Origin: Actinomycetes bacterium
GTDB lineage: Bacteria; Actinomycetota; Acidimicrobiia; Acidimicrobiales; RAAP-2
Direction of reading: 5' to 3'
Length of the DNA: 32,640 bases
Assembly: GCA_021838005.1 (NCBI GenBank)
Contig: JAKCEK010000006.1
Coordinates: 1 to 32,640 of the forward strand
This document shows positions 14,524 to 31,926 of this stretch, one piece after another (the first letter of the stretch is position 1; each line of letters starts with the position of its first letter). The notes under the pieces are model-generated. The model ran no database searches. It saw only the letters and a program-made list of their open reading frames with translations, and was not told the DNA's origin. The position numbers and the translations under genes are program-made.

Positions 14524-15149
14524 CGCCCCGCCGCGCGCGCGCGGCGCGGGCACTCGCCGCGCTCGGGGCGCTCGCCCTCGCGCTAGCCTCGGCGACCCCG
14601 GCCGGGGCCGGCGGCCCGCCGGGGCGCCTCCCCCCGACCCGGGCCGAACCTTCCTTCGGCGCCCCACTCACCCGGGCGATGGCGCGCCTCGCCGCGGCGA
14701 TCGCGAGCGACGACCCGGCGGGCGCCCTCGCGACGTTCTTCCCCGAGGCCGCCTACGTGCGCCTGAAGACCGGGGAGATCCCCGACCCGGCGGGCGACTA
14801 CGAGAACCGGCTCGTCGCACTCTTGCGCCTCGACGTCGCGGCCTACCACGCGGTGCTTGACGCGGGGTCACCCGCGCGCTTCGTGCGCGTCGAGGCCGAC
14901 CCCGCCTTCGCTCGGTGGATCCCCCCGGGAGCGTGCGAGAACTCCCTGGGCTACTGGCACGAGCCCGGCGTGCGCCTGGTGTTCGCCCACGACCACCGCC
15001 TGGTCTCGGTCGAGGTCGACTCGCTCATCTCGTGGCGGGGCGTGTGGTACGTCGTGCACCTGGGGCCGAACCCCCGAGCGCGCGACGTGGGCACCGTCCT
15101 CTCCTACACCCTCGGCCCGGGCCGGCCCGGCCCGCCGGGGGGCTGCTAG
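14520..15149 (+). CDS. Secreted protein of unknown function with N-terminal signal sequence
   Basis: GTG start overlapping the methyltransferase stop (GTGA). Translation VTPRRARAARALAALGALALALASATPAGAGG... is signal-like, followed by a mature domain with ENRLVALLRLDVAAYHAVLDAG, CENSLGYWHEPGVRLVF, ISWRGVWYVVHLGP. The ORF track start at 14205 is over-extended. Confidence 0.7.
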   Translation: MTPRRARAARALAALGALALALASATPAGAGGPPGRLPPTRAEPSFGAPLTRAMARLAAAIASDDPAGALATFFPEAAYVRLKTGEIPDPAGDYENRLVALLRLDVAAYHAVLDAGSPARFVRVEADPAFARWIPPGACENSLGYWHEPGVRLVFAHDHRLVSVEVDSLISWRGVWYVVHLGPNPRARDVGTVLSYTLGPGRPGPPGGC

Positions 15150-16291
15150 GCCGGCGGGGCGATCGAGCCGTCGGCGCGGATGAGGGCGGCCGCCGGCCCG
15201 AAGTCCTCGCGGGAGAGCTGGTTGACGAAGGCGGCGGCGGCCCCGTGGGGGTCGACGCTCGCGTGGCCGTCGGGAGCGAGCAGCAGCGAGGTGAAACGCC
15301 CGGCGAGAAAGCGGCCGCCCGCGGAGAGCGTCACGTGCAAGATCCCCGAGAGGTCCAGCGTTGCGGCCGCGGAGAAGTCCTCGTAGTTGGCGAAGTCGCC
15401 CAGGCTGTAGGCGATGAGGTGTCCGCGGTACCACTCCATGCCCCGCAGCACGTGCGGCCCACTCGCGATCACGAGGTCTGCGCCGTGGTCGATCGCGAAG
15501 TGGGCGAAGGCGAAGGGGTTGCCACGGTTCTCGCCGAGGAAGTACTCGTTCTGGCGCGTGACGTGGTCGGCGTTCGTCCCCTCGGCGCCGGCGTGCATGT
15601 ACACCACCACCACGTTGGCCTCGGCCCGCGCCCGGGCGATGAGCTGGGCCGCCGCGGAGGGGTCGAGGAGGTCGTTGGTGAGGACGTAGGGGGCGAAGTC
15701 GCAGAAGGCGACCCTCACCGGCCCCTCCCGGACCAGGCCGATCTGGCCCGGCAGGCCGGCCTGGACGATGCCGGCGGCCCTCAGGGCGGCGCTCGTCGAG
15801 GCCACGCCGGCCGGGCCGAAGTCGTCGCTGTGGTTGTTGGCCGAGTTCAGCACGGTGAAGCCGGCCGCGCGGTAGATCGCGGCGTACGACGGCGGGACCT
15901 TGAACGCGTAGCAGTCGAGGGCGACCGCGCCACACTTCGAGGTCGTCGCCTCGGTCAGGGTGCCCTCGAGGTTGCCGAAGACGATGGGGGCGGCGAGCGC
16001 TGAGCGCACCGAGTCGAACCAGGTCGCCGGGTCGCTGGGCAAGGTCGGCGTGTTGCCGAGCTCGGTGTCGCCGACGGCCGCCAGCGTGACCGTCGGGGGA
16101 AAGGTGGTGGTGGTCGAGGACGGCGCGTTCGCGGCCGTCGTGGTCGTGGTGGAGGCCGCGGCGCCCGAGGCCCGTGGGGTGGCCGCGAGACGCCAGGCCA
16201 CGACCCCGGCGACGACCAGGACGGCCGCGGCGACGAGTCCGGGGATGCGCCGGCGAGGCGCGCCGGCGCGGGCGTGGCGGCCGGCTACCAC
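15146..16291 (-). CDS. CapA family protein (poly-gamma-glutamate capsule biosynthesis-like metallophosphatase fold), membrane-anchored
   Basis: 381 aa: TM segment, Thr-rich linker, AAVGDTELGN, FGNLEGTLTE, VLNSANNHSDDFG, VYMHAGAEGTN, IASGPHVLRGMEWYRGHLIAYSLGDFANY. Confidence 0.9.
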   Translation of the reverse strand: MVAGRHARAGAPRRRIPGLVAAAVLVVAGVVAWRLAATPRASGAAASTTTTTAANAPSSTTTTFPPTVTLAAVGDTELGNTPTLPSDPATWFDSVRSALAAPIVFGNLEGTLTEATTSKCGAVALDCYAFKVPPSYAAIYRAAGFTVLNSANNHSDDFGPAGVASTSAALRAAGIVQAGLPGQIGLVREGPVRVAFCDFAPYVLTNDLLDPSAAAQLIARARAEANVVVVYMHAGAEGTNADHVTRQNEYFLGENRGNPFAFAHFAIDHGADLVIASGPHVLRGMEWYRGHLIAYSLGDFANYEDFSAAATLDLSGILHVTLSAGGRFLAGRFTSLLLAPDGHASVDPHGAAAAFVNQLSREDFGPAAALIRADGSIAPPA

Positions 16292-17280
16292 GGCTGGGGC
16301 TCACCGGGTCGGCGCGAGGCGTACACGGCGAAGAAATCCTTGGTCGTAACGGTGAGAAAGCGCGTCGGGATCTGGTTCGGGTTGTCGACCGCGAGCAGCG
16401 GTGACGCCGCCCCGGGCCCGCCGTAGGTGACAAAGATCGGCCACTCGGGGTTGATGTCGAGCTCCATCGCGCGCACACAGTGCAGCCGGACCATCACGGC
16501 CGCCAGGGTGGACGAGGTCTGGGCCGGGGCGGCCGCGTAGATGAGGTTGCCGTTGGCGTCGATCCCGAGCGCCGAGCGCCACACCGCCGGCACACCGCCG
16601 AGCGTGAGGCCCCAGGCCGCGTTATCGGCCGACAGCGGCGTGGGGCGCCCGGCGTTGACCAGAAGGGGCAAGTTCTGGCGGGCCATGACGACGTTCCCCG
16701 GCGGACGCGGTCCCCCGGTCCAGCGCACGACGTCGACCCGCCCGTTGACGAAGCGCTCGACGGTCGCCAGACCGTCGAGCATCGGGTAGTAGAGCGTGTG
16801 GTTCACGTAGAACCCGCCCGCGGCGTCGTGCTCGTAGAACCCGGCGTTGAACGTCGCGAGCAGGCGCCCGCGCCCCGACGGGGGGACCATCTCGGGCCCG
16901 CGCGGCTGCGCCGTCGGCCCGGGCCCCTCGTAGCCCAGGTAGAGCGCGAGGTCGGTCGAGTCGGTCCGGATCCAGGCGGCGTAGGCCACCACGGCGGGCT
17001 GGCTGGGGTCGGGCCGAAAGACGGTCGTCTCAACCGGCGCGCTCGCCCCGGCCCAGGTGTCGCGCGGGCGCCACGGGGCGCAGACCTCGGCCGTGCGAGC
17101 CGGGTGCCCGTCGCTCGCCGCCACGGCGACGCGGCGGCACACCGGGAGCGGTCCGCCGGCCGCGTGGGCGGCCCCGGCGCGGGGTGCGCCGAGGGCCGCG
17201 GCCACCACCGCCGCCGCCGCGACCGCGAGGGGGGCCGCCCGACGGCGCTCGGCGCGGGTGCGCTCGGCCGTGACGGTCAT
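16285..17280 (-). CDS. Secreted phosphodiester glycosidase (NAGPA/DUF2233-like) family protein
   Basis: 331 aa with signal-like N-terminus; TFNAGFYEHDAAGGFYVN, WRSALGIDANGNLIYAAA, VRAMELDINPEWP, which match the pattern of this family. Confidence 0.78.
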   Translation of the reverse strand: MTVTAERTRAERRRAAPLAVAAAAVVAAALGAPRAGAAHAAGGPLPVCRRVAVAASDGHPARTAEVCAPWRPRDTWAGASAPVETTVFRPDPSQPAVVAYAAWIRTDSTDLALYLGYEGPGPTAQPRGPEMVPPSGRGRLLATFNAGFYEHDAAGGFYVNHTLYYPMLDGLATVERFVNGRVDVVRWTGGPRPPGNVVMARQNLPLLVNAGRPTPLSADNAAWGLTLGGVPAVWRSALGIDANGNLIYAAAPAQTSSTLAAVMVRLHCVRAMELDINPEWPIFVTYGGPGAASPLLAVDNPNQIPTRFLTVTTKDFFAVYASRRPGEPQPW

Positions 17281-17322: not shown

Positions 17323-18963
17323 CTAGCGGCGAAACTCGGGCGCCCCGACGGCGACCGGGGTGGCCTCGTGCATCGCGGTGCGCGCGTGGTAGCTCGAGCG
17401 CGTCAGCGGCGACGACTGCACGTGGGCCAGGCCGAGGGCCCTCCCCCGCTCGGCCAGCTCCTCGAACTCCCGGGGCGTCCAGTAGCGCGCGACGGGGAGG
17501 TGGTCGACGCTCGGGCGCAGGTACTGGCCGATCGTCACGATGCTCACCCCCACCGCCGCCAGGTCGCCGAGCGCCTCGTCGACCTCTTCGGGCGTTTCGC
17601 CGAGGCCCACCATCAAACCCGACTTGGTCGTGAGCCCGGCGCGGGCGGCGCGGGCGAGGACCGTGAGCGAGCGCAGGTATCCCGCACTCGGGCGCACGGC
17701 GCGCTGGAGCCGGGCCACCGTCTCGAGGTTGTGATTGAGCACGTCGGGGCGCGCCTCAAACAGCACCTCGATCGAGGCCCGGTCGCCGCGCAGGTCGCTC
17801 GTGAGCACCTCGACCGTCGTGCCGGGGCGGGCGCCGCGGATGGCGCGCACCGTCGCGGCCATCGCGCCGGCTCCGCCGTCCGCCAGGTCGTCGCGCGCCA
17901 CGCAGGTGATCACCGCGTGGTCCAGTCCCAGCCGCGCTACCGCCTCGGCGACGCGGGCCGGCTCGGTCGGGTCCAAGGGCGCCGGCTTCCTCGTGTCGAC
18001 GAGGCAGAAGCCGCACGCCCGGGTGCAGCGCTCGCCGTTGACCATGAAGGTCGCGGTCCCCTCCGCCCAGCACTCGAAGATGTTGGGGCAGCCCGCCTCC
18101 TCGCACACCGTGACCAGGCGCAGATCCTCAGTGAGCGTCCGCAGCGAGCGGAACTCGGTGCCCATGCGGGCGGGGATGCGCAGCCACTCGGGCTTGCGGT
18201 CGCGGATGCCCAGGCCGGCCTCGGGGTCGACGCCGGCCTGGCGGAGCCGGCGGATCAGGGGCCGCTCCGAGGACGGCCCGGCCGACGGCGCCGACCGCTC
18301 GACGCGCGCGACGCGCGCCGGCCCGCCGAGGCGCCGGTCGAGCTCCTCGCCGAGGACGTCCTCCACTCGCGCCGGGGAGACGTCGAGCCCGAACGACGCG
18401 AGCGAGCCGACCGGCTTGTCGGGGATCCCGCAGGGCACGATGACCGCGAAGCGCGCGAGGTCGACCTCCACGTTGAGGGCGACCCCGTGGAGGGTCCGGC
18501 GCCGGCCCCGCGCGTCGCGCTCGGTCCGCACCCCGACCGCCGCGATCTTGGTCGGCCGACCCTCGAGGTCGGCCCAGACCCCGGGGTAACCCTCCAGTCG
18601 GCCCACGCGCCCCAGTCGACGCCCCTCGTCGAGGCGCTCGACGGTCGCGAGGACCGCGTCTTCCAGGGCGGCCACGTGGTCGCGGCCCGCGGCGGGATCG
18701 TCGGCCACCGTGACGATGGCCCAGGCCACGACCTGGCCCGGGCCGTGGTAGGTGACGTCCCCGCCCCGGTCGGCCTCGACGACGGTGGCGTCGAGCTCGT
18801 CTCGGGACACGAGGATGTGCTCGGCCCTCGCGCGCACCCCCAGGGTGTAGGTCGGCGGGTGCTCGAAGACCAGGACGTAGTCGTCCTCGGCCTGGGCCAG
18901 GGCCCGCTGGAGGTCGTTCGCCTCGGCGAAGGTCACCCGCCCCAGGTGGCGTCGCCGCAGCAC
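17323..18963 (-). CDS. Bifunctional LipB-LipA fusion: octanoyltransferase (N-terminal) plus lipoyl synthase (C-terminal)
   Basis: 546 aa single ORF. LipB: FEHPPTYTLGVRA, DRGGDVTYHGPGQVVAW, RPTKIAAVGVR, VPCGIPDKPVGSL. LipA: RKPEWLRI, CEEAGCPNIFEC (CX4CX5C), CTRACGFC (CX3CX2C), SGLMVGLGET, RSSYHA. GTG start overlaps the upstream stop (TAGTG). Confidence 0.95.
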   Translation of the reverse strand: MLRRRHLGRVTFAEANDLQRALAQAEDDYVLVFEHPPTYTLGVRARAEHILVSRDELDATVVEADRGGDVTYHGPGQVVAWAIVTVADDPAAGRDHVAALEDAVLATVERLDEGRRLGRVGRLEGYPGVWADLEGRPTKIAAVGVRTERDARGRRRTLHGVALNVEVDLARFAVIVPCGIPDKPVGSLASFGLDVSPARVEDVLGEELDRRLGGPARVARVERSAPSAGPSSERPLIRRLRQAGVDPEAGLGIRDRKPEWLRIPARMGTEFRSLRTLTEDLRLVTVCEEAGCPNIFECWAEGTATFMVNGERCTRACGFCLVDTRKPAPLDPTEPARVAEAVARLGLDHAVITCVARDDLADGGAGAMAATVRAIRGARPGTTVEVLTSDLRGDRASIEVLFEARPDVLNHNLETVARLQRAVRPSAGYLRSLTVLARAARAGLTTKSGLMVGLGETPEEVDEALGDLAAVGVSIVTIGQYLRPSVDHLPVARYWTPREFEELAERGRALGLAHVQSSPLTRSSYHARTAMHEATPVAVGAPEFRR

Positions 18964-20126
18964 TAGCGCTCGCTCTCGAGGTCGAGCCCCGTGAGGAGCT
19001 CGGCGACGCGCTCGAGGTAGCGGGCCGCGCTCGTCGACTCGCAGACGCGGTGGTCGAAGCTGAGCCCGAGCACGAGCCGTCGGCCCACCCTGAGGGTCCC
19101 CTCGACGACGACCGGGACCTCGCGGACCGCGCCGATCGACAGGGCCGCGACCTCGGGCTGGATGACGATGGGTTGGGCGACGAGGGTGTGGGGACTCGGC
19201 GCGCCGACCACGGTGAAGGTGCCGCCCATGAGGTCGTCGGCGGTGAGCTCGCGCGCGGCGAGGCGCTCGTCGAGGTCGGCGACCCGACGCGCCAGCGAGC
19301 GCAGGGTCAGCCCGGCCGCCGCGTGGACCACCGGGACGAGCATCCCCTCGTCGGCCAGGGGCCGCACGAGGCCCAGGTTCACGCCGCGGTGCAGCACGAG
19401 CTGGTCACCCACCACCGACGCGTTGAGGAACTCGAACTCGCCGAGCGCCCTCACCGCGGCCAGGGCGACCACCGTCTCGTCCGAGACCGCCACGCCCTCG
19501 CGGGTCGTTCGACCGAGCGCGTCGAGGCGCGCGAAGACCGACCCGTCGGCCTCGAGGGCGACGAAGCCCTGGGGGCAGACCTGGGCCGAGTACGCGAGGT
19601 GCTGACCCATGCGACGCTGCCCGTGGCTCAGGGCGACGGTGACCTCCTCGGTCGGCCCCAGGGCCACCGCGCGCTCGGCGTCACGACGGGTGATCGTCCC
19701 GCCAGGACCGGTGCCCGCGACGCTCGAGGGGCTGACCGCGCCGTCGGCGAGGATCCGGCGCACCACCGGCGAGAGGACGACCCCGCCCACCGCCTCGTCG
19801 GGTCGCAGGGTCACCGGGGCGCGCCCGGTCGGGGCCGCCTCGGCGGCCGGGGCCGACGTCTCGGCGGGCGTCGGCGCGACGGACGCCGTCTGGGTCTCGT
19901 CGATGACGGCCACGCGCGAGCCGGTCATCACGGTGTCGCCCTCGCCCGCCAGGATCTCGGTCAGGACGCCCGCGGCCGGAGAGGGCAACTCGGAGTCCAC
20001 CTTGTCGGTCGAGACCTCAAAGAGCGGCTCGTCGCGCGCGACGAGGTCGCCGACCTTCTTGAACCACTGGGTGATGGTCCCCTCGGTGACCGACTCGCCC
20101 AGCGAGGGCAGCGTGACCTCAACCAA
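18963..20126 (-). CDS. 2-oxo acid dehydrogenase E2 (dihydrolipoamide acyltransferase), single lipoyl domain
   Basis: 387 aa: MVEVTLPSLGESVTEGTITQWFKKVGD, lipoyl site STDKVDSELPSP, peripheral subunit-binding domain LSPVVRRILADGAVSPSSVAGTGPGGTITRRD, catalytic domain with DHRVCES. Confidence 0.92.
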   Translation of the reverse strand: MVEVTLPSLGESVTEGTITQWFKKVGDLVARDEPLFEVSTDKVDSELPSPAAGVLTEILAGEGDTVMTGSRVAVIDETQTASVAPTPAETSAPAAEAAPTGRAPVTLRPDEAVGGVVLSPVVRRILADGAVSPSSVAGTGPGGTITRRDAERAVALGPTEEVTVALSHGQRRMGQHLAYSAQVCPQGFVALEADGSVFARLDALGRTTREGVAVSDETVVALAAVRALGEFEFLNASVVGDQLVLHRGVNLGLVRPLADEGMLVPVVHAAAGLTLRSLARRVADLDERLAARELTADDLMGGTFTVVGAPSPHTLVAQPIVIQPEVAALSIGAVREVPVVVEGTLRVGRRLVLGLSFDHRVCESTSAARYLERVAELLTGLDLESER

Positions 20127-21540
20127 CGTGCAGTCCCCGGCCAGCGAGGGCGAGCAGGGTCTCGCCGAAGGTCTCCGACAGCGAGGGGTGGGGCTGGATC
20201 AAGGCCGCCGCCTCCTCGGCCGTCGCCTCCCAGTTGACCGCGTAGTAGCCCGCGCCGAGCTGCTCGGTCACCCAGGGTCCGGCCATGTGGACTCCGAGCA
20301 GCTGGCCGGCCGAGCCGTCGGGTCGCTTCTCGGCGATGACCTTGACGACCCCGTCGGTCTCCCCAATGATCTGGGCCCGACTGTTGCCGCCGAAGGGGTC
20401 CTTCTTCACCACAACCTCGATCCCGCGCTCCTTGGCGGCCGCCTCGGTGAGCCCGACGAAGGCGACTTCGGGGTTCGAGTAGATGGCCCAGGGCACGCGG
20501 TCGTAGTCGACCGGCACCGTGCTCTCGCCGAGGATCGTCTTTATCGCCACGATGGCCTCGGCGAAGCCCACGTGGGCCAGCTGGGGCGACCCGGCCACCA
20601 CGTCGCCCACCGCGTAGACCCCGGCGGCCGCGGTGCGCTGGAGCCCGTCGGCGACGACGAAGCCCCGCTCGTCGATCGCCACGCCGGTGCCCTCGCCCAG
20701 AAGGCCCTCGGTGCGCGGTCGGCGGCCCACCGACACGACGATGAGGTCGGTCTCGAGGGCCTCGCCGCCTTCGATCGTGACGGCCGTCGACGACTTCTTG
20801 GGGGCGTGGCCGGTCACCGTTACCCCGGTGCGTACGTCGATCCCGCGCTTCTTGAAGGCCCGCTGGACGACCCCGGCGACCTCGGCGTCGCAGCCCGCGA
20901 GGATCGAGGGCAGGAACTCGAGGATGGTGACGGCCGTGCCCATGTCGGCGAGCATCGAGGCGAACTCGCAGCCGATGGCCCCGCCCCCGACGACCACCGC
21001 GCGCGCCGGCAACGCGGTGAGCTCCAAGAATTCGTCCGAGGTGTGCACGAACTTGCCGTCGGGCTCCAGCCCGGGCAGCGTGCGCGGGACCGAGCCCGCG
21101 GCGAGGATGACGCTCGCGCCCACGAGCTCGGCACCCTGGTCGACCCCGTCGACCACGACCACCCGGTGGTCGGCCTCGAGGCGCGCCGTGCCGTTGAGCA
21201 CGGTGACCGTGCGTCCCTTGAGCAGGCCCGACAGACCCTTGTGGAGCTTGTCAACGACCTCGTTCTTGCGGGCCTGGCTCACCGCGAAGTCCACCGAGAG
21301 CCCCTTCGTCGTGAAGCCGAAGTCCGAGGCGTGCTCCAGCGTGCGGCGCACGTGGGCCGTCTCGAGGAACTCCTTGGCCGGCACGCAGCCCCGGTGCAGG
21401 CAGGTGCCACCGACCTTGTCCCGCTCCACGAGGGCGATCCTCAGCCCCGCCGAGGCCCCGTAGAGGGCGGCGGCGTAGCCTCCGGGCCCTCCACCGATCA
21501 CGACCACGTCGTACTGCTGGACCCCGTCAGCCACGGTCAC
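20119..21540 (-). CDS. lpdA: Dihydrolipoamide dehydrogenase (E3)
   Basis: 473 aa: DVVVIGGGPGGYAAALYGASAGL, GGTCLHRGCVPAKEFLETA redox disulfide, VVVGGGAIGCEFASMLADMG, YAVGDVVAG, QPHPSLSETFGE. Confidence 0.96.
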   Translation of the reverse strand: MTVADGVQQYDVVVIGGGPGGYAAALYGASAGLRIALVERDKVGGTCLHRGCVPAKEFLETAHVRRTLEHASDFGFTTKGLSVDFAVSQARKNEVVDKLHKGLSGLLKGRTVTVLNGTARLEADHRVVVVDGVDQGAELVGASVILAAGSVPRTLPGLEPDGKFVHTSDEFLELTALPARAVVVGGGAIGCEFASMLADMGTAVTILEFLPSILAGCDAEVAGVVQRAFKKRGIDVRTGVTVTGHAPKKSSTAVTIEGGEALETDLIVVSVGRRPRTEGLLGEGTGVAIDERGFVVADGLQRTAAAGVYAVGDVVAGSPQLAHVGFAEAIVAIKTILGESTVPVDYDRVPWAIYSNPEVAFVGLTEAAAKERGIEVVVKKDPFGGNSRAQIIGETDGVVKVIAEKRPDGSAGQLLGVHMAGPWVTEQLGAGYYAVNWEATAEEAAALIQPHPSLSETFGETLLALAGRGLHVG

Positions 21541-21608: not shown

Positions 21609-22046
21609 TCAGGCGCTCTGACCCCGCTGGGCGTCGGCCGCGGCGGTCGCGAGGCGGTCGACGAACTCGTTCATGGGGTCCCCGGCGTGGCCGCGCACCC
21701 ACGAGAAGCGCACCTCTCGGCCGGAGTCGAGCGCCAGGGGCAGCAGCGCCTCCCAGAGGTCCCGGTTCGCGACGGGCTGGTTCTGGCTGTTGCGCCATCC
21801 GCGGCGGCGCCACCCGACGTACCACCGGTCATGAAAGCAGCGTACGACGTAGTTCGAGTCGCTCACCACCTCGATCGCGCCGTCGGGGTTCGCCCGCAAC
21901 GCCTCGAGGACGGCCGTGAGCTCCATGCGCTGGTTGGTGGTGTGGGCCTCGGCGCCGCTGGCGTAGCGCGTCCGACCCGCCGCCCAGGCCCAGCCCCCGG
22001 GACCGGGGTTGCCGCGACAGGCGCCGTCGGTGTGCACCACGGTCAT
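21609..22046 (-). CDS. rnhA: Ribonuclease HI
   Basis: 145 aa: VHTDGACRGNPGPGGWAW, TTNQRMELTAVLEAL, SDSNYVVRC, WVRGHAGDPMNEFVDRLA. Confidence 0.95.
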   Translation of the reverse strand: MTVVHTDGACRGNPGPGGWAWAAGRTRYASGAEAHTTNQRMELTAVLEALRANPDGAIEVVSDSNYVVRCFHDRWYVGWRRRGWRNSQNQPVANRDLWEALLPLALDSGREVRFSWVRGHAGDPMNEFVDRLATAAADAQRGQSA

Positions 22047-22501
22047 ATGACCCGAGTGATCCAGGCGTCGGGGTCGTCGGTGAAGCGCGTCACGGCCACC
22101 GGCAGGTCCCCGCGCAGGACCTGACCGAGGGTGACGTGCTCGAGCACCTCGCGCAGCGCGGCGCGCACCGCCACCCAGACGTCCCGCAGGTGCTGGGCCG
22201 ACCCCTCGTAGACGAGGGTCTCGGGGCGCATGCCCCGGACCCCCGCCATGGGGCCGCTGACCACGCGCAGGATGTCGGCGATCATGATCGCGTCGGGGTC
22301 CTTGGCCAGCCGGAAGCCGCCCTCGGGTCCGCGCTGGCTCGTCACCAGCCCGCCGCGGCGAAGGTCGGAGAGGATCGCGCCCAAGAACTTCGCCGGCAGG
22401 TCCTGCTCGTGGGCCAGGTGCTCGGCGCTGACCGAGGCGTCGCTGGCCGCGAGGCTGAGCAGCGCGCGGATCGCGTACTCGGCCTTCGCGGGGATCTGCA
22501 C
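22043..22501 (-). CDS. Rrf2 family transcriptional regulator (no cysteine cluster)
   Basis: Start re-set from the ORF track (23083) to GTG 22499-22501: VQIPAKAEYAIRALLSLAA...LPAKFLGAILSDLRRGGLVTSQRGPEGGFRLAKD. The rest of the long ORF is antisense to thiE. Confidence 0.9.
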   Translation of the reverse strand: MQIPAKAEYAIRALLSLAASDASVSAEHLAHEQDLPAKFLGAILSDLRRGGLVTSQRGPEGGFRLAKDPDAIMIADILRVVSGPMAGVRGMRPETLVYEGSAQHLRDVWVAVRAALREVLEHVTLGQVLRGDLPVAVTRFTDDPDAWITRVI

Positions 22502-22549
22502 CGCACCATTCTGCCCCACCGGGGCCGCGCGGGCCCCTAACGTGGTCCC

Positions 22550-23197
22550 GTGTTCAGCCTGGCGAGCCGACGCCTCTACCTCTGCGTGGGCCTGCGCGAG
22601 GACCTTTCTGCCTTCGTGCGCGACGTCGTGGCGGGCGGCGTCGACGTCGTCCAGCTGCGCGAGAAGGTCGCCCCGTTGAGCGCCCAGCGCGGCCCCGCCC
22701 ACGCGCTCGCCCGTCTCTGCCGGGACCTCGGGGTGCCCTTTATCGTGAACGACTCCCCCGAGCTCGCCGCCGAGGTCGGCGCCGACGGGGTCCACGTCGG
22801 CCAGGACGACGTCACGGTGGCCCACTGTCGCGAGCTGCTGGGTCCGGCGGCGATCGTCGGGCTCTCGACCCACGCCGAGGCCGAGCTCGAGCCCGGCCTG
22901 GCGACCTCGGCGACCTACCTGAGCGCGGGCCCCGTCGTGGCGACCCCCACCAAGCTCGGGCGCCCGGGCACGGGGGTGGGCTACGCGCTCGTCGCCCAGC
23001 GCCGCAGCGACCGGCCGGTCTTTGTCACCGGCGGGGTCAGCGCGGCGACCGTGGGCGCGCTCGTGGAAAGGGGGCTGGGTCACTTCGTCGTCGTGCGCGC
23101 CCTCACCGAGGCCGCCGACCCGGGCGCCGCGGCGCGCGCGCTGCGCCGCGCGCTCGACGAGGCCCTCTCAGCGGTGCCGGTCGAGCCAGCCCAGTAG
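22550..23197 (+). CDS. thiE: Thiamine-phosphate synthase (ThiE-like)
   Basis: 215 aa: GGVDVVQLREK, VPFIVNDSPELAAEVGADGVHVGQDD, YLSAGPVVATPTKLGRPGTG, FVTGGVSAATV. Confidence 0.9.
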   Translation: MFSLASRRLYLCVGLREDLSAFVRDVVAGGVDVVQLREKVAPLSAQRGPAHALARLCRDLGVPFIVNDSPELAAEVGADGVHVGQDDVTVAHCRELLGPAAIVGLSTHAEAELEPGLATSATYLSAGPVVATPTKLGRPGTGVGYALVAQRRSDRPVFVTGGVSAATVGALVERGLGHFVVVRALTEAADPGAAARALRRALDEALSAVPVEPAQ

Positions 23198-25764: not shown

Positions 25765-26519
<755 letters not shown>

Positions 26520-26523
<4 letters not shown>

Positions 26524-27755
26524 GCAGCTACAGCCCGGCGCGGGTGCGGGCCGACGTGCCGATGCTCCACCGTCAGGTGCACGGACACCCCCTCACCTAC
26601 CTCGACTCGGCCTCGAGCACCCTGCCGCCCCGCGCGGTCATCGAGGCGATGGACCGCTACTACGAGTGCCACCACTCCAACGTCCACCGGGGCGTCTACC
26701 TCACCGCCGAGGAGGCGACCGCGGACTACGAGGGCGCCCGCGCGGCCGTCGCGCGCTTCATCAACGCCCCCGGCGGCGCCGAGGAGGTCGTCTTCACGAA
26801 GAACACCACCGAGTCGTTCAACCTGCTCGCCCGGAGCTGGGGGGCGTCACAGACCCAGCCCGGCGACGCCGTCGTCGTCACCGAGATGGAGCACCACGCC
26901 AACGTCGTCCCGTGGTTCCAGTTGCGCGACAGCCACGGGATCGAGGTACGGTTCATCCCCGTCGGCGACGACTTCCGCCTCGACCTCTCTCACGTTGAGC
27001 GCGTGCTCGCGGGGGCCAAGCTGCTCAGCGTCACCGGCATGTCCAACGTGCTCGGCACGCGCAACGACCTGGCCGCCCTCGCCCGCCTCGCCCACGACCA
27101 CGGGGCGCTCTTCGCCGTGGACGGAGCGCAGTCCGTCGCCCACGGCTCGACCGACGTCGCGCGCGACGGGATCGACTTCCTCGCCTTCAGCGGCCACAAG
27201 ATGCTCGGGCCCACCGGCGTCGGGGTCCTCTGGGCGCGACGCTCGCTGCTCGAGGCGATGCCCCCCTTCCTCGGGGGCGGCGGCATGATCGCCGACGTGC
27301 GCACCGACGGCTTCACCCCGGCGGCCGGGGTCGCCCGCTTCGAGGCCGGCACGCCGCCGATCGCCGAGGCCGTCGGACTCCACGCGGCCATCCGCTACCT
27401 CGAGGGCCTCGGTCCCGACGCCGTCGAGGCCCACGAGCGTGAGCTGACCCGCGACGCCCTCGAGCGCCTCGAGAGCACCTTCGCCGACCGGGTGCGCGTG
27501 ATCGGCCCGCACGACGTCATCGATCGCGGGGGCGTGCTCAGCCTCGACGTCGAAGGCGTCCACCCCCACGACGTCGCCCAGGTGCTCGACCAACACGGGG
27601 TGTGCGTCCGCCCGGGCCACCACTGCGCCAAGCCCCTGATGCGCCGCTTCGGCCTCGCCGCCACCGCGCGGGCCTCCTTCGGGCCGTACTCGCTCACCCG
27701 TGACACCGACGCCCTGATCGAGGGCCTCGGGCACGCCCTCGCCCTCTTCGCCTAG
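26520..27755 (+). CDS. sufS: Cysteine desulfurase SufS
   Basis: Start re-set from the ORF track (26145) to GTG 26520, overlapping the sufC1 stop (GTGA). YLDSASSTLPPRAVIEAMDRYYECHHSNVHRGVY, EMEHHANVVPWFQL, FLAFSGHKMLGPTGVGVL, CVRPGHHCAKPLMRRFG. Confidence 0.96.
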
Positions 27756-27757
27756 CC

Positions 27758-28225
27758 GTGGCCCCCCTCGACGACCTCTACCGCGAGATCATCCTCGACC
27801 ACTACCGCACCCCGCGCAACCGGGGCGAGTTAGCCACGCCGCCGGCCCATCGCGTCGAGGGCTTCAACCCGCTGTGCGGCGACGAAGTGACCCTCTACCT
27901 CGAGCTGCGCGACGGCCGGCTGGCCGACATCAAAATGACCGGTCGGGGCTGCTCGATCTCTCAGGCCTCCGCCTCGCTCATGGGCGCGGCCGTCAAGGGT
28001 AAGACCCTCGAGGAGGTCAACGCCGCCCTCGAGCGGTTCCGCCAGCTCATGACCGTGACCGAGACCCGCCTGGACGAGGGCGCCGAGCCCGAGCCGCTCG
28101 ACGTGCGCTCCCTGGGCGAGCTGGCGGCTCTCGCCGGCGTGGTGAAGTTCCCGGTACGCATCAAGTGCGCCATGCTCGCCTGGGCGACGCTCGCCCAGGG
28201 TCTCAGCGAGGCGTCGAGCCACTGA
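27758..28225 (+). CDS. sufU: SufU-type Fe-S assembly / sulfur-transfer protein
   Basis: 155 aa: LYREIILDHYRTPRNRGEL, GFNPLCGDEVTLYLEL, GRGCSISQASASLM, VRIKCAMLAW. Confidence 0.95.
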   Translation: MAPLDDLYREIILDHYRTPRNRGELATPPAHRVEGFNPLCGDEVTLYLELRDGRLADIKMTGRGCSISQASASLMGAAVKGKTLEEVNAALERFRQLMTVTETRLDEGAEPEPLDVRSLGELAALAGVVKFPVRIKCAMLAWATLAQGLSEASSH

Positions 28226-29642: not shown

Positions 29643-30371
29643 TCACGCCCGCGGCGCGCCGAATCCGTCGTAGCCGTCGCGCTCGAGTCGCTCGGCCAAC
29701 TCGGGACCGCCGGTCGCGACGACCCGGCCGTCGCGCACGACGTGGATCGTCGTGGGCACGAGCTCCACCAGCAGTCGACGGAAGTGGGTGATGGCGAGCA
29801 CGCCGCACTCCCACTCCGCCGCCGCGGCCGACAGCCGTCGCGCGACCGCGGCGAGGGCGTCGACGTCGAGGCCCGAGTCGACCTCGTCGAGAAGGCAGAA
29901 CCGCGGGCGCAGCACGCCGAGCTGGACCATCTCCGCGCGCTTGCGCTCCCCGCCCGAGAGGTCGACGTTCACGAAGCGCTCGAGCAGCTCGGGCCGCAGC
30001 CCGACCCGCACGGCCTCCTCGCGAACGCGTGCCGCCACCGTGGCGGCGTCGGCCCCGGCGGCGACGAGCATGTCGAGCGGGCGCACGCCCGGGACCTCGA
30101 GGGGCTGCTGGAGGGCGAGAAAGAGGCCCGCGCGGGCTCGCTCGGTGGCCGAGAGCCCGAGCAGCTCGCGCCCGTCGATGGTCACCGACCCCCCGAGCAC
30201 CCGGTATCCGGGGCGCCCGGTGAGGGCGTGCGCCAGGGTCGACTTGCCCGAGCCGTTCGGGCCCATAAGGGCGTGCACCTCGCCGGTGGACATCGTGAGG
30301 TCGAAGCCCTTGAGGACCTCGCGGTCCCCGACCGCGACGCGCAGCCCCTGGATCGAGAGCGTCGAGGTCAC
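29643..30371 (-). CDS. SufC-like Fe-S assembly ATPase (copy 2, divergent)
   Basis: Start re-set from the ORF track (30713) to GTG 30369-30371: VTSTLSIQGLRVAVGDREVLKGFDLTMSTGEVHALMGPNGSGKSTLAHALTGRPGY, VNVDLSGGERKRAEMVQLGVLRP, LLDEVDSGLDVDALAAVARRL, AITHFRRLL. Confidence 0.93.
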   Translation of the reverse strand: MTSTLSIQGLRVAVGDREVLKGFDLTMSTGEVHALMGPNGSGKSTLAHALTGRPGYRVLGGSVTIDGRELLGLSATERARAGLFLALQQPLEVPGVRPLDMLVAAGADAATVAARVREEAVRVGLRPELLERFVNVDLSGGERKRAEMVQLGVLRPRFCLLDEVDSGLDVDALAAVARRLSAAAAEWECGVLAITHFRRLLVELVPTTIHVVRDGRVVATGGPELAERLERDGYDGFGAPRA

Positions 30372-30682
30372 GGGACCTCCACCACCAGCTGTCCGTCGGC
30401 CTCGCGCACCTCGTAGTGGGCCACCGGCCGGGTCGCGGGGAGCGAGAGGGGCTCGCCGTCGACGAGACCGAAGAGCGCACCGTGGCGGGCGCACTCGATC
30501 TCGGCGGCCTCGACGTCGACGTAGCCCTGGGAGAGGGGGAAGTCCTCGTGGCTGCACCGGTCGTCGAGGACGTAGAGCGATCCCCCGATGCGCACCACGA
30601 CCAGGGTCCGCCCGGGCGCGGGGATCGCGCGCGCGACGCCGACCTGGTAGTCGGTGAGCCGGCCCAGGACCACCGTCGTCAC
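30368..30682 (-). CDS. Rieske [2Fe-2S] ferredoxin-like protein
   Basis: 104 aa: YVLDDRCSHEDFPLSQGYVDVEAAEIECARHGALFGLVDGEPLSLPATRPVAHYEVRE; CxH...CxxH ligands. 4-nt overlaps with both neighbours. Confidence 0.93.
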   Translation of the reverse strand: MTTVVLGRLTDYQVGVARAIPAPGRTLVVVRIGGSLYVLDDRCSHEDFPLSQGYVDVEAAEIECARHGALFGLVDGEPLSLPATRPVAHYEVREADGQLVVEVP

Positions 30683-31926
30683 GAGCCCACCACCGCGGCC
30701 CGGGCGACCTCACCCACCGCCGCGGCGACGTCGGCCTCGATGGGCGCGGCCAGGGCGGCGGGCAGGGCCTCGAGCATCTCGTAGAAGAAGCCCTGGATCA
30801 TGAGGCGCTGGGCGTCGACGCGCTCGACGCCGCGCGATTCTAGGTACCAGCGCTGGAAGGCGTCGAGGGGCCCGACGCTCGAGGCGTGGGCGCACAGCAC
30901 GTCGTTCTCTCGGATATCGAGGTTGGGCACGGAGTCGGCGTGCGCAGCCGACGAGAGCAGGAGGTTGTGGTTGGTCTGGCGCGCGTCGGTGCGCGTGGCG
31001 CCCTTCTCGATCTCGATCAGGCCGGTGTAGACCGAGCGCGAGCGCTCGGCGAGCGCGCCCTTGGAGAGGAGTCGAGACGTCGTGCGCGGCGCAAGGTGGA
31101 GCTGGCGGGTACGGAAATCGTGGACCTGGTCGCCCCGTCCGAGGAAGGTCGTGCGCAGCACGTTGGCCGCGCCCGCTCCGCGCAGCTCCGCGTCGTTGCG
31201 CGAGCGGTCGTAGTGGCCGCCGAGGCCGATGACCGCCTGGTGCAGACGGGCGTCGCGCTCCAAGAAGCCGGTCGTGCGCGCGACCTGCCAGGCGGTCTGG
31301 TCGAGGCGCTGGTAGGTGACGAGGGTCAGCGACCCGTCCGCGTCGACCGCGTACTCGCTCAGGGGCACCACCAGGCCGTCCCGGCCGCCCTCGAGGTACT
31401 CGACGACCACCGCCTCGGCGCCGCGCCCGACCTCGACGCGCAGCCGCGGGAAGGACGCCCCGGTGCCGGCGAGGCCGAGCACCACCACCGGCGCACCGAG
31501 GACCGTCCCGTCCTCGACGCGCACGACGGTGGTGGCCGGGGCGAGCGCCACGTTGAGCAGCGAGAAGGCGTCGTGGGCGTAGCGCTCGGCGAGGGCCTGG
31601 CCCGTGTGGGTTCGGCCGGACTCGTCGGAGGAGACGTGGACCCCCGTCGGGAGCTCGCCCACGGGCGCGAGGTAGCCGTCGACGACCGTGAGGACGAGCC
31701 CCGCGCCGTCGGCCAGTCGACGGGCCGTGTCCGAGGGCGCCACCGACGAGGGGCCCGTCGGCACGACGTGACGATCGAGGCCGAGCTCGGTGAGCGGGGT
31801 GTAGCGCCAGACCTCGTCGCTCGCCGAGGGCAGGCCGACCTCCTCGAAGGCCCGCCACGCGTCGAGTCGCCCCCCGCCCGGGCGCGCGTCGATCACGGCG
31901 GCGGCGGTGTCGGCGAAGGTCGTCAT
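30679..31926 (-). CDS. sufD: Fe-S cluster assembly scaffold SufD
   Basis: 415 aa: SDEVWRYTPLTEL, RNDAELRGAGAANVLRTTFLGRGDQVHDFRTRQLHLAPRTTSRLLSKGAL, DARQTNHNLLLSSAAHADSVPNLDIRENDVLCAHASSVGPLD. Confidence 0.93.
   Translation of the reverse strand: MTTFADTAAAVIDARPGGGRLDAWRAFEEVGLPSASDEVWRYTPLTELGLDRHVVPTGPSSVAPSDTARRLADGAGLVLTVVDGYLAPVGELPTGVHVSSDESGRTHTGQALAERYAHDAFSLLNVALAPATTVVRVEDGTVLGAPVVVLGLAGTGASFPRLRVEVGRGAEAVVVEYLEGGRDGLVVPLSEYAVDADGSLTLVTYQRLDQTAWQVARTTGFLERDARLHQAVIGLGGHYDRSRNDAELRGAGAANVLRTTFLGRGDQVHDFRTRQLHLAPRTTSRLLSKGALAERSRSVYTGLIEIEKGATRTDARQTNHNLLLSSAAHADSVPNLDIRENDVLCAHASSVGPLDAFQRWYLESRGVERVDAQRLMIQGFFYEMLEALPAALAAPIEADVAAAVGEVARAAVVGS

Follow-up and report, generated by a model that had tools for sequence, protein, structure and literature searches.

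LipB (octanoyltransferase) and LipA (lipoyl synthase) act sequentially on the same protein-bound chain, and the locus described here raises the question of whether both can be encoded as one protein and, if so, what such an arrangement would mean for lipoate assembly. The window, the whole stretch of 32,640 nucleotides that was analysed, comes from contig JAKCEK010000006.1 of a member of the Acidimicrobiia. The initial annotation had proposed a single-ORF LipB-LipA fusion, and we indeed found an open minus-strand frame of 546 codons that matches the models of both domains (Table 1), with the motifs it had named (the LipB lysine and acyl-cysteine, the two LipA cluster motifs and RSSY) all located in this frame.

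In the N-terminal half, the Pfam family LplA-B_cat (PF21948) matched residues 21-208 with 92 bits against a cut-off of 27, and the NCBIfam model TIGR00214 (lipB) was passed with 117.3 bits (cut-off 83.55); scores for the narrower PRK LipB models fell under their cut-offs. The same single chain also passed TIGR00510 (lipA) with 337.5 bits (cut-off 310.25) and carries a Pfam Radical_SAM match at residues 311-466, the Pfam and NCBIfam extents being approximately residues 4-220 for LipB and 255-534 for LipA. Within the LipB domain, K139 lies in KIAAVGVR, C178 in PCGI and the RGG motif at residues 66-68; in M. tuberculosis LipB, Cys176 and Lys142 form the catalytic dyad, and roles have been reported for both the dyad and the RGG loop (PMC9307952). 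The LipA auxiliary-cluster motif CX4CX5C is formed by C287, C292 and C298 (CEEAGCPNIFEC, residues 287-298), the radical-SAM motif CX3CX2C by C313, C317 and C320 (CTRACGFC, residues 313-320), and RSSY occupies residues 522-525. In a set of 108 diverse fusions sharing no more than 80% identity, near-invariance extends to both dyad residues of LipB, its RGG loop, all six cysteines of the cluster motifs and the RSS part of RSSY, and in a 38-sequence alignment R66, G67 and G68 are invariant, with C178 and K139 invariant or near-invariant. Because the tested catalytic residues are near-invariant across such diverse fusions, both halves are very likely active, judging from sequence and from what is known of the two families.

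Foldseek matched each half to its own family, with M. tuberculosis LipA 5exk and M. tuberculosis LipB 1w66 among the hits, and no solved chain covering both halves was found among the matches listed. The LipB half shares the fold, the Cys/Lys dyad and the RGG loop with M. tuberculosis LipB (PDB 1w66; TIGR00214; 38% identity in the structural match), but the latter is a stand-alone chain of 232 residues, whereas the former makes up the N-terminal half of a chain of 546 residues. Likewise, both cluster motifs and RSSY are common to the LipA half and M. tuberculosis LipA (PDB 5exi/5exj/5exk; TIGR00510; approximately 50% identity, target-normalised TM-score 0.93), yet, unlike its M. tuberculosis counterpart, the window LipA sits C-terminal to LipB behind a variable linker.

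Table 1. Coordinates of the fusion gene, its parts and neighbouring genes in the window.
Feature	Position	Strand	Basis or details
lipB-lipA fusion gene	17323..18963	-	546 aa; GTG start 18963-18961; TAG stop 17325-17323; domain models and >130 fused homologues
LipB (octanoyltransferase) domain, residues 1-212	18328..18963	-	PF21948, TIGR00214, PDB 1w66, near-invariant residues
LipB-domain dyad	K139, 18549-18547; C178, 18432-18430	-	RGG loop at residues 66-68
Linker, residues 213-253	18205..18327	-	Alignment of 108 diverse fusions; AlphaFold2
LipA (lipoyl synthase) domain, residues 254-534	17362..18204	-	TIGR00510 at 255-533, PDB 5exk and 5exi, conservation
E2 dihydrolipoyl acyltransferase, one lipoyl domain, likely substrate	18963..20126	-	PF00364, PF02817, PF00198
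E3 dihydrolipoyl dehydrogenase, further upstream in this gene run	20119..21540	-	TIGR01350, 461 bits, over cut-off
SUF-type genes	26145-28225; 30679-31926	+; -	
ABC ATPases of the SUF-type set	25765-26523; 29643-30713	+; -	

The source of the window is a draft genome of 213 contigs, and one fusion homologue (L060) is broken by a frameshift, probably an assembly error, on a contig of 1.25x coverage; both would fit an artefact that had joined two genes. Among 24 congeneric genomes, the window's own excluded, 22 gave an uninterrupted match across the junction, one of which ends at approximately residue 433; of the two remaining congeners, one has the gene split over two contig ends (G003) and the other has no match (G004). 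Most of the other families sampled in the order also have the fusion. A survey of the class returned a match in 141 of 148 Acidimicrobiia genomes, and the halves are fused in one frame in all 138 genomes in which both were assembled, single-contig genomes included; this count omits G130, G140 and G178, in each of which one half alone was assembled. Ambiguous cases were settled by reading the DNA, which gave one continuous frame every time, and the in-frame stops suspected in G030, G057, G062, G141 and G149 were rejected in this way, with both halves lying in one open frame. None of the seven genomes without a match encodes a LipA over the curated cut-off, and assembly gaps are the simplest account of them. 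Records of the fusion family include Acidimicrobiaceae, Acidimicrobiales, Acidimicrobiia and Candidatus Microthrix MAGs, and reduced genomes of approximately 1 Mb (family code f26) carry the fused form as well. Since the same frame is open in more than 130 other genomes, single-contig assemblies among them, chance joining or a sequencing error is excluded, including the linker frameshift that the initial annotation had raised as a possible objection, and the probability we attach to an artefact is negligible. The fusion thus appears to be fixed throughout Acidimicrobiia rather than a local accident. No re-splitting was found within the class. The only unfused copy seen there is a second, divergent lipB-lipA pair (L178, G091:C83) in a genome that also has the fusion, reflecting either contamination or horizontal transfer.

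Outside the class, separate lipB and lipA genes, often adjoining, are found in Mycobacterium, Nocardia, Streptomyces, Arthrobacter and others, and in many unfused relatives the two are neighbours on one strand. The expectation that LipB and LipA are normally separate holds outside the class but not within Acidimicrobiia, where fusion is the norm. No uninterrupted fusion was seen beyond Acidimicrobiia in samples of 110 and 396 Actinomycetota genomes, the larger sample being limited to E 1e-100, at which weak cases may escape. Apparent fusions in G215 and G268 (equal open-frame lengths) proved false because the reported frame runs through a stop, as did the apparent out-of-class fusions in G292, G302 and G310. 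An impression that unfused lipB and lipA mostly share a frame was discarded, as the contig search favours same-frame pairs. Matches in the plasmid collection were separate pieces and, where annotated, distinct genes. A lone, independent-looking LipB-LipA fusion was observed in a Nitrosomonadales MAG (L118:2803-4428, P0001); no further fusion was seen among 49 family relatives, not all of which were read at the DNA level, and it represents a fusion that arose recently and independently, or else an error of assembly.

On the LipA tree, the fused state requires two changes, in the Acidimicrobiia clade and in the Nitrosomonadales sequence; when LipB and LipA are combined, a branch with an SH-aLRT support of 95 separates the Acidimicrobiia fusions from the rest of the tree. 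A LipB-only tree requires three changes of state rather than two, the extra change probably reflecting weak resolution; all trees were quick searches under a simple model. Because the Acidimicrobiia fusions make up one clade, a single old fusion, no later than the class ancestor, would be the simplest history: neighbouring lipB and lipA genes most likely joined in one event by the time of the last common ancestor of Acidimicrobiia, and the fusion would have been kept since.

We also considered whether the two halves could be produced separately, through internal initiation or cleavage in the linker. In the 108 diverse fusions, the linker is rich in Ala, Arg and Gly, poorly conserved and variable in length, from approximately 30 to 190 residues. 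For the window protein, AlphaFold2 predicted a short strand (residues 216-220) and a helix (235-242) in the linker of approximately 40 residues, and in a homologue (L087) it predicted disorder over residues 225-271, which could favour separate products. A codon check agreed with the earlier claim that positions 18180-18360 contain no in-frame ATG, GTG or TTG; the closest in-frame starts are a GTG at V200 (18366-18364), inside LipB, and an ATG at M268 (18162-18160), inside LipA. A linker free of start codons is not a conserved trait of the fusions, since 100 of the 108 homologous linkers contain at least one in-frame ATG, GTG or TTG, which again would favour separate products. These codons are, however, unconserved in position, missing from the window linker and seven others, and occur at a rate of 0.053 per codon compared to a background of 0.065; Shine-Dalgarno-like sequences ahead of them are scattered, and the alignment of 108 fusions revealed no conserved cleavage motif in the linker. 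An internal LipA start was rejected on these grounds, in line with the earlier view that separate translation of LipA is unlikely, and we regard separate production of the halves by either route as very improbable.

Directly upstream of the fusion gene lies the gene for an E2 dihydrolipoyl acyltransferase, whose TAG stop overlaps the GTG start of the fusion by one base at 18963. The same arrangement, an E2 gene directly upstream on the same strand, recurs at 90 of the 98 fused loci for which 1.1 kb or more of upstream DNA was available. As the E2 carries a lipoyl domain, the fusion is encoded beside one of its likely substrates. GcvH is another lipoyl-domain substrate in the window's genome, which also contains further, unsorted biotinyl/lipoyl domains. 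There is no second LipA in this genome, and the sole other LipB-family ORF (L198:740-1465, G000:C193; 241 aa) is weak: it belongs to the LplA/LipB superfamily, scores under the Pfam cut-off, has no NCBIfam match and is perhaps a divergent lipoate ligase. Consequently, the fusion must supply the lipoyl synthase, and the gene content makes it very likely that the cell has no other lipoyl synthase and relies mainly on the fusion as octanoyltransferase.

We propose that the product of the fusion gene is a single enzyme with two activities in lipoate assembly. Its LipB domain, at the N-terminus, would transfer octanoyl from octanoyl-ACP, through a thioester on Cys178, to a lipoyl-domain lysine on E2 or GcvH. 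The LipA domain at the C-terminus would then add one sulfur at C6 and another at C8 of this bound octanoyl chain, relying on two [4Fe-4S] clusters, of which one is the radical-SAM cluster and the other an auxiliary, sacrificial one. As a whole, a bifunctional LipB-LipA enzyme that arose by one fusion in the class ancestor and has been retained since is the best explanation, and we hold it with high confidence. The fixed 1:1 stoichiometry suggested by the initial annotation follows directly from one chain.

Whether the two domains also cooperate in space is less certain. AlphaFold2 gave a mean pLDDT of 91.0 and a pTM of 0.91 for the window protein, and 87.0 and 0.88, respectively, for the L087 protein, which is 48% identical; both predictions used shallow alignments of 33-38 sequences, and pTM is a summary number only. 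Two domains without a defined relative position are expected to give a clearly lower pTM, so the high values suggest, from these confidence scores alone, that LipB packs on LipA in a defined manner. Such packing could allow two successive modifications of one lipoyl domain, and direct hand-off of an octanoylated carrier, as initially proposed, is plausible, with indirect support from the high pTM, the conserved E2 co-location and the lack of splitting in the class. The competing account, which concerns only this last step, is that losing the stop codon between adjacent genes may have had no selective effect, that the bifunctional chain was kept by drift or equal dosage, and that the domains act independently, with the lipoyl domain dissociating between steps. 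The adjoining, same-strand lipB and lipA genes of many unfused relatives are consistent with this, as is the Nitrosomonadales MAG, which suggests that sporadic fusing is possible. The linker points the same way in its range of lengths and its predicted disorder in one homologue, and since it is poorly conserved, domain geometry may not matter. Against these points stand the absence of any re-split in the class and the high pTM of two proteins that are only 48% identical, and on balance we lean slightly towards a bifunctional chain without hand-off. That the class-wide fusion freezes a specific docking, in which octanoylation is followed by sulfuration without the lipoyl domain leaving, and that the same contact is transient between the separate enzymes elsewhere, is a tentative idea that we consider rather unlikely.

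An old, natural, class-wide fusion offers a 'Rosetta stone' hint that LipB and LipA may touch each other, as well as a single-chain protein for testing stoichiometry, transfer in cis and the geometry of the two domains. Among known fusions, the NCBIfam entry NF053790 (LplA_LipA_fuse, bifunctional lipoate--protein ligase/lipoyl synthase) comes closest, as it likewise places an LplA/LipB-superfamily enzyme ahead of LipA in one chain. Its first half is, however, a lipoate ligase, and the window protein aligns through the LipA part only, with 342.7 bits against the cut-off of 800 for full-length membership. The unfused lipB and lipA of Actinomycetes (Mycobacterium, Nocardia, Streptomyces) encode the same enzymes in the same order, often as immediate neighbours, but differ in the intervening stop codon and hence yield two proteins. 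We found no published description of a LipB-LipA fusion in the open-access literature, and automatic annotation of such fusions may well exist already. The chemistry and the domains are known; what is unreported, as far as the open-access literature was searched, is the class-wide arrangement, a shared derived trait of Acidimicrobiia. It is also a possible annotation trap, as tools that assign one function per gene may call lipB or lipA missing.

Elsewhere in the window, SUF-type iron-sulfur assembly genes (cysteine desulfurase-like, NifU_N, SufBD core and ABC ATPases) lie within approximately 14 kb of the fusion. The minus-strand ORF at 14868-16478 (536 aa) has no Pfam or NCBIfam match and may not be a gene. 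In the minus-strand ORF at 22043-23083, an Rrf2-type regulator domain covers only residues 199-323 of 346, and its true start is probably internal.
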